Source: an uncultured Acidimicrobiales bacterium (GTDB lineage Bacteria; Actinomycetota; Acidimicrobiia; Acidimicrobiales; Aldehydirespiratoraceae). From it: 64,000 bases of DNA. A program made the position numbers and the translations under genes. Where the stretch lies: positions 62,001 through 126,000 of the forward strand of contig CAJQPN010000005.1 of the NCBI GenBank assembly GCA_905480195.1. The letters run 5' to 3'. The notes beneath the pieces were generated by a model that saw nothing but the letters and a program-made list of their open reading frames with translations, made no database searches and was not told where the DNA came from. Each line of letters opens with the position of its first letter. Positions within the stretch are counted from its first letter, which is position 1. Shown here in pieces: positions 46,817-53,361 of this stretch.

Positions 46817-46850
46817 CGGCACCGTCTCCTTTCGGGTCACGAGAGCGTTG

Positions 46851-46924
46851 TAGCGACGGACAGATTCGAACTGTCGACCTCTCGATTATGAGTCGAGCGC
46901 TCTCACCAACTGAGCTACGTCGCC
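46851..46924 (-). tRNA. tRNA-Met (CAT anticodon)
   Basis: GGCGACGTAGCTCAGTTGGTGAGAGCGCTCGACTCATAATCGAGAGGTCGACAGTTCGAATCTGTCCGTCGCTA. Confidence 0.92.
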
Positions 46925-46952
46925 ATGGTTCGCACGGCGAGTCGAACCGACG

Positions 46953-47025
46953 AGCTCCCTGTCAGAATTGAACTGACGACCTTCTCCTTACCATGGAGAC
47001 GCTCTGCCGACTGAGCTAAGGGAGC
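46953..47025 (-). tRNA. tRNA-Thr (GGT anticodon)
   Basis: GCTCCCTTAGCTCAGTCGGCAGAGCGTCTCCATGGTAAGGAGAAGGTCGTCAGTTCAATTCTGACAGGGAGCT. Confidence 0.93.
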
Positions 47026-47203
47026 AGCCTCCGAACGAGTGCTCGGAGCGACGGCAATGATGCCACGCCGTGGTCGGGTTCCCAACCCGGCTTCCAGCGT
47101 TGGCGCTGTAGCGACGAACCAACGCAGTTGATGTTTCGTACTTCCCAGTATTCTTCGAGGTTGTTCGACTCAATTTTTGTCCTTCGGAGCCGAAAGAGGT
47201 TCT

Positions 47204-48493
47204 ATGCGATTCGAGCGTCTCGTCATCGAAGCTGACGACTCCACGTTCGCGTTGGATTTTCACCCCAAGCTGACCGTCATCTCCAGTGTCGGGCAGGTGG
47301 AGCGCGAAGGGCTGATCAACGAGCTGGTCGGCAGTCTGAGTTCCAGCCGACCCGGCGTACATGCCGAGGTGGTCGCCGACAACGGCGGCCACTTCGCGAT
47401 CTTTCGGCCGCGTGGCGCCCGCCCCCTCGTCGTCGACGTCGACGCCTCTGCCGACGTCAGCGCCCGCTTCACCGACGCCGAAGGCGAAATCGATCTGCTG
47501 TCCGTCGCTGGAATGACTGCACGCGACGCAAAGCGGACCCTGCGCGTCACCAGACGTGACCTGGATGCCAGCACCCATCACGAGAAGGTCGTGCGGCGCC
47601 TCGCCAAGCTGGATCCCGACGCGTTGTGGGCCATAGCCGATGAGACACTGGCGAGCGAGCACCGCCTCGAGCAAGCCGCCACTTCGAGCGGTTCGTCTCC
47701 CGAAGACGCCACCGTCGTCAGCCGTATCGAGGAACGCCACGAGCGTTTCGAGGAGGCCCAGCGCACCGCTGAGGAATCTCGCCGTGTCTCGTTCATCGCC
47801 GGCGTGATCACGGCCCTCGCGTTAGTTCCGACTGCGATGTTCCTCGGTCAAGAACTCACGATCCTGCTGGCAATCATCGCTGTCATGATGCTCACCGCCT
47901 CGCTCGTGCGGAAATATCTCATGCTTCGGGCCCGGAAGGCGGAGGAGGCTGTTCTCGCCGAGGCAGGTGCTCAGACGTACCTCGGGTTCCACATGCAGCG
48001 TGTCAACGGGCTCATCGAGAGCCAACAAGCGCGCCAAAACCTCATCGAGGCGAAGGTCGCCCACGACGGCGCACTCGAACGTTGGGCCGAGCTTGCCGGC
48101 GACATCAGCCTCGACTGGGCGTTCGAGCATCGCGACGAGATCGAGGCTGCTGCCACCCACGTTGCCGCAGTCACCGACTCGGGAGTGTCGGCACCCCCCG
48201 ATGATGCTGACGACCTCGCTGCCTGCACCCGTGCGCTCATGCAGCGCGTCGACGACGTGCGCACGTTCGGACCCGCCGGCGAGAGCCTGCCGCTCATCAT
48301 CGACGACGCCTTCTCCGGCCTGAAAGCAGACCTGAAAGCGAAGATCCTCGGGATACTCGTACAGGTTTCGGAAAGTCAACAGGTCGTGCTGTTGACCTCA
48401 GAAGACGACGTTGCCGACTGGGCTCGCAGCGAGGCGATCCACGGCACTATGTCCATCATCGAGCCGAGCACGGTGCAGACGTCGATCCGGTGA
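47204..48493 (+). CDS. Membrane-spanning SMC/RecF-like protein with degenerate Walker A (function unknown)
   Basis: N-term MRFERLVIEADD...KLTVISSVGQVEREGLINELVGSL (P-loop position lacks GK[ST]); central TM pair; C-term LPLIIDDAFSGLKADLKAKILGILVQVSESQQVVLLTSEDDVADWA resembling Walker B/D-loop of SbcC/RecF ATPases. Start could be 47177. Confidence 0.6.
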   Translation: MRFERLVIEADDSTFALDFHPKLTVISSVGQVEREGLINELVGSLSSSRPGVHAEVVADNGGHFAIFRPRGARPLVVDVDASADVSARFTDAEGEIDLLSVAGMTARDAKRTLRVTRRDLDASTHHEKVVRRLAKLDPDALWAIADETLASEHRLEQAATSSGSSPEDATVVSRIEERHERFEEAQRTAEESRRVSFIAGVITALALVPTAMFLGQELTILLAIIAVMMLTASLVRKYLMLRARKAEEAVLAEAGAQTYLGFHMQRVNGLIESQQARQNLIEAKVAHDGALERWAELAGDISLDWAFEHRDEIEAAATHVAAVTDSGVSAPPDDADDLAACTRALMQRVDDVRTFGPAGESLPLIIDDAFSGLKADLKAKILGILVQVSESQQVVLLTSEDDVADWARSEAIHGTMSIIEPSTVQTSIR

Positions 48494-48582: not shown

Positions 48583-49353
48583 ATGCCCGATTTCGAAACG
48601 CTGGAGTGCATCGTCGATGGCCGAGTCGGCCGACTGAAGCTCAACCAACCCGAGAAACTGAACCCACTGAGCACACGGTGCCTCGAGGAGTTGGTTGCGG
48701 CTGCGAGCTGGTTCGACAGTCTCGAGGAGGTGCGCGTCGTGATCGTGCACGGCGCCGGACGAGCCTTCACCGCAGGCGCCGACCTCGCCTCGTTCGGCGG
48801 GCCGACCGGCACACTCCCCCGCGATGCCGCCGATGCCGGGCGCCGCATGGCCGAAGCGATCGAGTCGATGCAGGCGGTGACGATCGCCGCAGTTCACGGT
48901 CATTGCATCGGCGGCGGCGTCGTCTTGGCCGCGGCCTGCGACCTGCGAGTTGCCGCCGAGTCCACGAACTTCGCGATTCCTGAAGTCGACCTGGGAATTC
49001 CGCTGGCGTGGGGGGGCATCCAACGACTAGTTCGCGAGATCGGCCCGGCAGCCACTCGCGAACTCGTCATGACATGCCGGTCCTTCAGTGCCCGAGAGGC
49101 GCACACGCGGGGCATGATCAACACGGTGTCGGCCGACGACGCCTACCTGGCCGATGCCGAAGCGTTGGCGCGAGCACTCGCCAAAAAGTCTCGTCTCACC
49201 TTGCGCGCCACGCTCATGGCTGTCGACGCAGCCGCAGAAGAACTCGTGTCGACCGGGACGGCGTGGTCCGATGCCGACTCACTCGTCAATGCGCTTCACG
49301 ACGAGGAATCGCGGGCAGCCGGTGCGGCCTATCTCGCCGAACGCGGCCGCTAG
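48583..49353 (+). CDS. enoyl-CoA hydratase/isomerase family protein
   Basis: VGRLKLNQPEKLNPLS...VVIVHGAGRAFTAGADLASFGG...VHGHCIGGGVVLAAACDLRVAAESTNFAIPEVDLGIPLAWGG. Confidence 0.92.
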   Translation: MPDFETLECIVDGRVGRLKLNQPEKLNPLSTRCLEELVAAASWFDSLEEVRVVIVHGAGRAFTAGADLASFGGPTGTLPRDAADAGRRMAEAIESMQAVTIAAVHGHCIGGGVVLAAACDLRVAAESTNFAIPEVDLGIPLAWGGIQRLVREIGPAATRELVMTCRSFSAREAHTRGMINTVSADDAYLADAEALARALAKKSRLTLRATLMAVDAAAEELVSTGTAWSDADSLVNALHDEESRAAGAAYLAERGR

Positions 49354-50847: not shown

Positions 50848-51955
50848 GCAGGCCGGCCTTGGTCGAGATCGCAATCGAACGACGGGCCTCGTGCAACCGG
50901 TGCCGTTCCAGGCCGTGGGTCATGAAACCGAACGACACGCCGGAGACTGGATCGGCCCAGGCCAACTGACCCCTTGCGCCGCCGTGGCCGAACGTCATCG
51001 GGCTGACGGTGTGGGCGTGGCCGCGCCCGCTGGCCCGCCCGTCGTCACCGGCAAGGATGAACGCATGGGTGCGGTTAGCCGATATGCCCATGTGATCCTC
51101 GTGGGTCTGGCGGACGATGGCGAGGGCATCTTGTTTGACCTCGGCGCGCAGGATCTCACCGTTGTCGTGAAGGATCGCCTGATACCACGAGGCGAAGCCG
51201 CTGGCAGTAGTGATTCCGCCGCCGCCAGGTTGGCCCAACGCCCGTATACCAGCATCGTTGAACGAGGTGAGCGCGTCGTCGGTGACCTCGGTGACCGGGA
51301 GCGCCACGCCGAACTGCGCCTCGTACTCGATCGGATCGACCGGTTCGCCAACGCAATACACGTCGGTGATGTCGCCCTGCTCCGCCTCCGGGATCGCGAG
51401 CCACCGGGTTTGCCCAGCCGGCTCCATCAGGCGCTCGGTGATGACGTCGGCATACGGTCGGCCCGAGACCTCCTCGATGAGATCGGCCAGGATCCAATGG
51501 GCCGACGATGGGTGATACTCGAAGCGGGTGCCTGGCTCCCAGTTCGTGTACCACGTGCCGTAGCGCTGGAGGCGAGCCGTTCGGTCGCTGGCGATCCGGG
51601 GCGCCATCGGTGCTGAAGGGAAGCCCCCTTTGTGGAGGAGGACTTGGGAGATGGTGATCCTCTCCTTGCCGTTGGTCCCGAACGTCTCAAGGATCGACGC
51701 AACGGGGTCATCGAGGTTGAAAAGGCCCTCGGCTGCGAGTTCGAGCACGGTGAGACTCACCGTCGGTTTGACTGCAGAGTACGTGTGGAACCGTTCATCC
51801 TCACGCGCCTCTCCGTACGCCTCGGCGTATACCACCTCACGTTCGAAACCGACTGCGAGCTGAAAACCTGGCAAGCGACCCTCGTCGACTTCGCGACGCG
51901 CGCGTTCGAGCAGGTCGTCAAGGCGAGACGAAACGATCCCAGCAGGGAGGTTCAT
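50828..51955 (-). CDS. serine hydrolase, beta-lactamase (class C)-like
   Basis: FHTYSAVKPTVSLTVLELAAEGLFNLDDPVASILETF...(SxxK), YHPSSAHWILADLIEEVSGRPYADVITERLMEPAGQ; start revised to MNLPAG. Confidence 0.85.
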   Translation of the reverse strand: MNLPAGIVSSRLDDLLERARREVDEGRLPGFQLAVGFEREVVYAEAYGEAREDERFHTYSAVKPTVSLTVLELAAEGLFNLDDPVASILETFGTNGKERITISQVLLHKGGFPSAPMAPRIASDRTARLQRYGTWYTNWEPGTRFEYHPSSAHWILADLIEEVSGRPYADVITERLMEPAGQTRWLAIPEAEQGDITDVYCVGEPVDPIEYEAQFGVALPVTEVTDDALTSFNDAGIRALGQPGGGGITTASGFASWYQAILHDNGEILRAEVKQDALAIVRQTHEDHMGISANRTHAFILAGDDGRASGRGHAHTVSPMTFGHGGARGQLAWADPVSGVSFGFMTHGLERHRLHEARRSIAISTKAGLLTTPVD

Positions 51956-53361
51956 AGCCCAGAGACGGTAGCCGTACTCGATGAGCGACCACGATTCCCC
52001 ACGACCGGCACGAGCGCCTTCATCGACCGATGCCGCACCACTCCTTTCCAGACGCCGACGCCATATGCGAGGTGATCGACAAGCCGGAGCGCGACGCCTC
52101 GAACGGGATCGATGTGCCGTCCCGATCGTGCGTATTCGGCGGCACTCACACCCATCAGCACAACACCGACTCGACAGCGAACCCGGCGAGAAGCGCACGC
52201 AGCGAGAAGGGTGAACGGCCACCACGCCCGTACGAGTGCGATGATGGTCGTTCTGGCCGCATGCTCGACAGCACCGCGGGTGATCTCCGGCGGCGCCTCA
52301 TCCCCGAACGCAGCAACGACCCGACGCTTCACGACGGCGATCGTGGCGGACACGACTCCAGGAACTGTCCGGACCGGCACAATCGCAGCAGCGCCGAGAC
52401 CCAACAGGACCGGGGTTGGCGGCCGGGCCGGCGCAACAGCGTCCCCGTGCCGAGCGGCAAGCGGCGCCGCCGACGAGCCGTACGCAACGCGTTGGCGAAC
52501 CCACGCGTGCCAGTCGGACCGAGGTCGGTGCCGAACGACGACATCGGGGTCGTAGCGAATGACCCGCCCATCGCCAGCAAGTCGCCAGATCAGATCGACG
52601 TCCTCGCCATAACGAAGCGTCGAATCGAACCCGCCTTCGGCTCGGATGACCTCGGCACGCAGCAGCAGCGTGGCACTCGGAACGAAGGCAACGACCCGCC
52701 CCGGGCCGACCGGCGAGGGAACGGGACCGAGATCGAGCGGCGAGAAGTCCTCCTCGTAGGCGGCGAGGAGACCACTCCCCGGCTCCGACGCCACGCGCGG
52801 CGCCACAGCGACCACTTCGGGGTCGACGAAGTGGCCGAGGAGCGAGGCGATGTCTTCGACCGTGAGATCAATATCGGCATCAACGAAGAGCACGTTCGCA
52901 GTGGTGACCCGATCGAGACCGGTCATCCGGGCTGCAGCCGGGCCCCGAGCACTGTCGTGACGCACGATGGTGACGTCGGGCGCCTCGAACCGAAACGGCA
53001 CCGTCGAGCCGTCGTCGACGACGACGATCGACACGCCGGGAAGGCGCTCGATCAGACGACGGACACCCGACTCGTCGTCGAGCACCGGGATCACGACCGT
53101 GACATCGACATCGATGACCGGATCAACCTGCGGGTGCACGAGACCACCGGCAAGCAGTCGACGCGCAAGTCGTCGTTCGGCTTCGCCATCACCGACCGGC
53201 GCACCGCCGATCCAGCGATCGACCGCCACCGCACCCTCGTCACTGAGCCGCACCGAACGCACCGGTGCCCCACCGAATAAGAGGCGTCCCTGTTCGCGGC
53301 GATGGAGGTTGCCGTCGGCAACGAGCGTCAGGCCGCTGGGAACAAGGTCGGGTTCGGCCAT
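51952..53361 (-). CDS. mftF: mycofactocin biosynthesis glycosyltransferase MftF-like
   Basis: GRLLFGGAPVRSVRLSDEG...VTVVIPVLDDESGVRRLIERLPGVSIVVVDDGST...FVDADIDL...PSATLLLRAEVIRAEGGFDSTLRYGEDVDLIWRL...HLAYGVGVWKG; whole-length organisation as MftF. Confidence 0.78.
   Translation of the reverse strand: MAEPDLVPSGLTLVADGNLHRREQGRLLFGGAPVRSVRLSDEGAVAVDRWIGGAPVGDGEAERRLARRLLAGGLVHPQVDPVIDVDVTVVIPVLDDESGVRRLIERLPGVSIVVVDDGSTVPFRFEAPDVTIVRHDSARGPAAARMTGLDRVTTANVLFVDADIDLTVEDIASLLGHFVDPEVVAVAPRVASEPGSGLLAAYEEDFSPLDLGPVPSPVGPGRVVAFVPSATLLLRAEVIRAEGGFDSTLRYGEDVDLIWRLAGDGRVIRYDPDVVVRHRPRSDWHAWVRQRVAYGSSAAPLAARHGDAVAPARPPTPVLLGLGAAAIVPVRTVPGVVSATIAVVKRRVVAAFGDEAPPEITRGAVEHAARTTIIALVRAWWPFTLLAACASRRVRCRVGVVLMGVSAAEYARSGRHIDPVRGVALRLVDHLAYGVGVWKGVVRHRSMKALVPVVGNRGRSSSTATVSGL

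Follow-up and report, generated by a model that had tools for sequence, protein, structure and literature searches.

What a protein built on the frame of an SMC/RecF-like ATPase might do with two membrane-spanning helices and no canonical P-loop is the question raised by a gene lying beside tRNA genes in an uncultured Acidimicrobiales bacterium. The window, i.e. the whole stretch of 64,000 nucleotides that was analysed, carries this gene (hereafter family A) on the forward strand at 47204..48493, encoding 429 amino acids. The original prediction had described an open reading frame that lacks a P-loop, encodes two hydrophobic helices and lies near tRNA genes; each of these features was present, as were the peptides quoted there, N-terminal LTVISSVGQVEREG and C-terminal LPLIIDDAFSGL...QQVVLLT. 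The start codon first assigned, TTG at 47177, was replaced by ATG 47204, since close orthologs in the alignment start at the latter with MRFERL or MRFDRL, and a ribosome-binding-site-like GAAAGAGG (47192..47199, forward strand) is located four bases 5' of this ATG, which is thus the most likely start. No sigma-70-like promoter was found for the gene.

Relatives of A were gathered by genome search, a single-protein scan of contigs having yielded one relative. Eighteen further genomes of the organism's own taxonomic family matched A over its length with 52-72% identity, and further relatives in the same order showed identities of 27-45%; the family alignment comprised 32 sequences, namely the window protein and 31 relatives (26-72% identity). 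A survey of conservation across Actinobacteria had been proposed originally, and among 397 genomes sampled across the phylum the family was seen in one order only, full-length matches being restricted to the order of the window organism and two genomes outside it matching at the C-terminal end only. Pairwise dN/dS ratios ranged from 0.07 to 0.31, well below 1; these values, along with the full-length relatives in the family and order, establish A as a real gene family rather than a chance open reading frame. Searches of Pfam and NCBIfam with the window protein gave no match above curated cut-offs, and Pfam searches with the 32 members returned weak and scattered matches, SbcC_Walker_B among them (best E 0.055).

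The AlphaFold2 model of A, generated with the family alignment (pLDDT 82.5, pTM 0.64), placed strands in the N- and C-terminal parts of the protein and long helices between them. The best 50 PDB matches retrieved with Foldseek were to cohesin, condensin, Rad50, SbcC, Smc, RecF, RecN, Smc5/6 and AriA/PARIS, all with probabilities of 0.96-1.00, and were headed by those to the heads of cohesin, Rad50, RecF and AriA (E from 2.6e-6, probability 1.00). Full-length superpositions had TM scores of about 0.3 and large rmsd values, presumably due to arms pointing in different directions, hence the fold assignment rests on the head. Sequence searches of the PDB with the A profile gave weak matches only, at the Walker B end, to Rad50 and ABC chains. 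An ABC-type head of the Rad50/SMC/RecF kind is well supported as a structural prediction; the ATPase-like frame claimed originally was recovered in the model, and the alternative that an ABC-type head fold is absent was not borne out.

Within this predicted head, the canonical ATP site has been lost in a regular manner. The Walker A motif GxxxxGK[ST] was absent from all 32 A sequences, its position in the window protein being occupied by SSVGQVEREG (residues 27-36; 47282..47311, forward strand), the replacement that had been read from the sequence at the outset. When the 32-row profile was aligned with P-loop-bearing YhaN-type proteins using hhalign (residues 1-114, E 1.3e-10), R34 fell on the P-loop lysine. 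This residue is arginine in 32/32 sequences, leaving no conserved hidden P-loop lysine, and is preceded by E in 29/32; the position of the P-loop Ser/Thr is occupied by E, D, A, R or G, and the P-loop glycines are also lost. No ABC signature of the LSxG/LSGG type occurs before Walker B in the 32 rows. The Walker B pattern hhhhD[E/D] itself is retained, in the window protein as PLIIDDAFSGL (residues 363-373; 48290..48322, forward strand), with D367 invariant (32/32) and D or E at residue 368 in 30 of the 32 sequences. Arginine was also found at the P-loop lysine position in 13 of 14 proteins of a family B and in all four of a family C, both of them related Walker-A-less families of the class that are described below, and the lysine is kept in the YhaN-type relatives included in alignment A3. 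The regularity of this lysine-to-arginine exchange across families A, B and C points to a common state under selection and away from decay at random. Family A is very probably, in line with the original reading, a membrane-anchored, Rad50-like head without a functional Walker A; judged by these residues it would probably not hydrolyse ATP, and we infer an absence of ATP binding also.

The hydrophobic helices proposed for the middle of the protein were evident from hydropathy, in A itself and across the family, and as helices in the model. In the window protein they span about residues 194-216 (47783..47851) and 218-241 (47855..47926, both forward strand), and in most of the 32 members two such helices, closely spaced or fused, were located at about residues 190-240, with one peak only above the hydropathy threshold in a few members. 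A two-helix membrane hairpin is accordingly predicted to be a family feature. Arginine and lysine residues flank the outer sides of both helices in the window protein, thus by the positive-inside rule both ends of A should be cytoplasmic. In genome G310 the relative located at this tRNA locus (L071:599-1519) has 307 amino acids and neither hairpin nor arm, a version that would represent a natural soluble pseudo-head.

It had been suggested that the protein belongs to no family that can be named precisely. This held insofar as no curated family matched, but not insofar as profile alignment ties A to the YhaN/SbcC-like branch, to which it is related as a pseudo-ATPase rather than being an orphan. 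With the YhaN/SbcC-type membrane SMC-like ATPases (Pfam AAA_27/AAA_23), A shares profile homology, an ABC head made up of an N-terminal and a C-terminal half, and a mid-protein transmembrane pair identified by hydropathy; it differs in having neither P-loop nor signature and in missing most of the coiled coil (about 430 against about 930-980 amino acids). YhaN-type proteins of the latter length are also held by Acidimicrobiia, and in alignment A3 three of four had an exact P-loop and the fourth, encoded at L104:1104-4013, had GDNESAKSS, in which alanine replaces the glycine before the P-loop lysine; this protein is a possible intermediate in the loss of the ATP site. The long, Walker-A-less proteins of family C, of about 800-900 amino acids (L155:8851-11250, reverse strand; L156:7479-9950, forward strand; L098; L099), aligned with A over its full length (hhalign E 6e-43); membrane helices were clear in L098, L100 and L101, and none was detected in L099. 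In two genomes a family C gene is situated beside sufB/sufD/sufC-like genes.

YhaN-type proteins have the Mre11-like nuclease YhaO encoded adjacently. At the A locus, the neighbours (tRNAs, ECF sigma factor, enoyl-CoA hydratase-like and MFS genes) looked unlike Mre11 on inspection of their translations. A true YhaN-type protein was itself not found in most A-carrying genomes of the window organism's family when searched with one YhaN-type query, and was set aside as a general partner on this basis. Compared with Rad50 and SMC heads, A shares the predicted fold and the Walker B aspartate, but has no canonical ATP site, hook or hinge and instead has a membrane hairpin. Degenerate sites are also familiar from type I ABC exporters, in which they work beside a consensus site in the transporter. 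What A has in common with those sites, the subject of one account (PMC7756269), is an ABC-type nucleotide site minus canonical residues; unlike in the exporters, no consensus site is known alongside A. Searches of the open-access literature returned nothing relevant on membrane proteins of the YhaN/SbcC kind or on pseudo-ATPases that are SMC-like and anchored in the membrane.

Three tRNA genes were identified to the left of A with ARAGORN, including those for tRNA-Thr (46952..47025, reverse strand) and tRNA-Met (46850..46924, reverse strand). The tRNA neighbours had been pointed out previously, and the arrangement is conserved, with A found beside tRNA-Thr/tRNA-Met and transcribed away from them in 19 of 20 loci examined. 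Downstream of A within the family is an enoyl-CoA hydratase-like gene (48583..49353, forward strand), its function assigned by inspection of the translation and not by a family model. Where the available stretch was long enough, an ECF sigma/anti-sigma pair, tRNA-Trp, secE, nusG and rplK mostly follow at the locus. A glycosyltransferase gene at 51952-53361 of the window, mftF-like (mycofactocin) in appearance, is kept in the same neighbourhood. In five congeneric genomes without A, the enoyl-CoA hydratase-like gene adjoins tRNA-Thr at a distance of 130-180 bases, and in two genomes of genus g10 without A an MFS gene neighbours tRNA-Thr, hence these absences are clean and do not stem from gaps in the data. 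Three changes in the presence of A, most simply explained as losses, are implied by a tree built from four proteins encoded nearby. Both the synteny of the locus across several taxonomic families and the clean absences of A led to rejection of a mobile island inserted at the tRNA genes, and no functional link between A and the adjacent tRNA genes was found.

A candidate partner was provided by family B, comprising Walker-A-less, coiled-coil proteins of about 650-850 amino acids; the members that were scanned showed no membrane helix. Foldseek was weakly informative for B, with Rad50 and MukB as best matches (probability 0.72-0.96). The C-terminal ends of A and B are similar, which may reflect shared ancestry only, and the two genes are not neighbours, that of B being found in the order queG-glycosyltransferase-SRPBCC-[B]-aminotransferase (L139-L149, L151, L152, L158). 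In several genomes of the order an ArsA/Get3-type ATPase is encoded upstream of B (L151:5418-6632), an arrangement that the f1 loci with B did not show. Within family f1, B was detected in 15 of 19 genomes with A, and in one of 32 genomes without detected A (G031, 66% complete). The B slot was empty in the window organism's own genome (L186:1664-1786) and in G043, and in G042 B was in pieces; in G019 and G021, the two other A-carrying genomes in which B was not found, the aminotransferase of the B locus likewise remained without a match. Outside f1, a clear B was not detected in several of the A-carrying genomes. When phylogeny was taken into account, the association amounted to three independent pairs and was not significant (sign test, p 0.25). 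In genera with B, A was mid-to-well conserved relative to other genes at its locus, e.g. 88% versus 83% for the enoyl-CoA hydratase-like gene and 79% for bla, and in genus g1 it ranked last in conservation among the genes compared (72% versus 92% for the enoyl-CoA hydratase-like gene and 86% for the MFS gene), which fits relaxed selection after loss of B in this one lineage. A complex of A and B is a tentative proposal, to which we would give somewhat over a third of the weight.

These observations could be accommodated by a mechanism in which the N- and C-terminal segments of A come together as a single cytoplasmic ABC-type head, the membrane hairpin is borne on a short helical arm, and the ATP site has changed from GK[ST] to ER-x, with the signature gone and the Walker B aspartate staying. 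An internal salt bridge between R34 and D367 would fix the shape of the head without nucleotide, and A would therefore act as a static scaffold in the membrane onto which a partner docks, most likely the soluble coiled-coil family B with the same lysine-to-arginine exchange. In the window's lineage B would have been deleted, leaving A under weakened yet purifying selection. That A is such a nucleotide-independent scaffold, with B as its likeliest and now lost partner, is in our judgement an evenly balanced proposition. A persisting role for nucleotide, in which A binds it through a non-canonical pocket with arginine in place of lysine and contributes the regulatory side of a composite site completed by a true SMC-like ATPase, could draw upon the retention of D367 and of the adjacent acidic residue, and upon the fact that SMC-like heads dimerise; it is nevertheless unlikely, as the P-loop glycines, the Ser/Thr position and the signature are lost together with the lysine, and a YhaN-type protein that might complete the site was not found, with one query, in most A-carrying genomes of the family.

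Equally improbable is that the window copy is a functionless relic on its way out. The vacated B slot, the low conservation of A in g1 and the clean absence of A from other species of the genus would all agree with such decay, but the frame is intact, all 14 family-invariant residues are retained and dN/dS in the window's lineage is 0.24-0.31, indicative of purifying selection. Many Rad50-like proteins serve in phage defence, and A resembles AriA, the PARIS ATPase that acts with a toxin partner, in head fold and in size and is encoded alongside tRNA genes; no match was returned by PADLOC, however, and the gene keeps a fixed chromosomal place in several taxonomic families without any indication of mobility, making a defence role very improbable. 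With regard to the static scaffold, a role at the envelope is equally possible as one on DNA, given that B is surrounded by genes for a glycosyltransferase, an SRPBCC-type lipid-binding fold and, in some genomes, an ArsA/Get3 ATPase.

More speculatively, and with considerable doubt, Acidimicrobiia may possess a two-component, ATP-independent SMC-like complex, in which the membrane pseudo-head A and the soluble coiled-coil pseudo-head B, their heads locked by the lysine-to-arginine salt bridge, would form a scaffold between the membrane and a cargo of either DNA or envelope machinery. SMC and Rad50 proteins are regarded as ATP-driven machines. Families that keep the head with the catalytic lysine changed to arginine, one of them tied to the membrane, would show that this architecture is useful without its motor, and such pseudo-heads would offer a natural test of head functions besides hydrolysis, with the co-presence of A and the soluble B making a complex between them directly testable.
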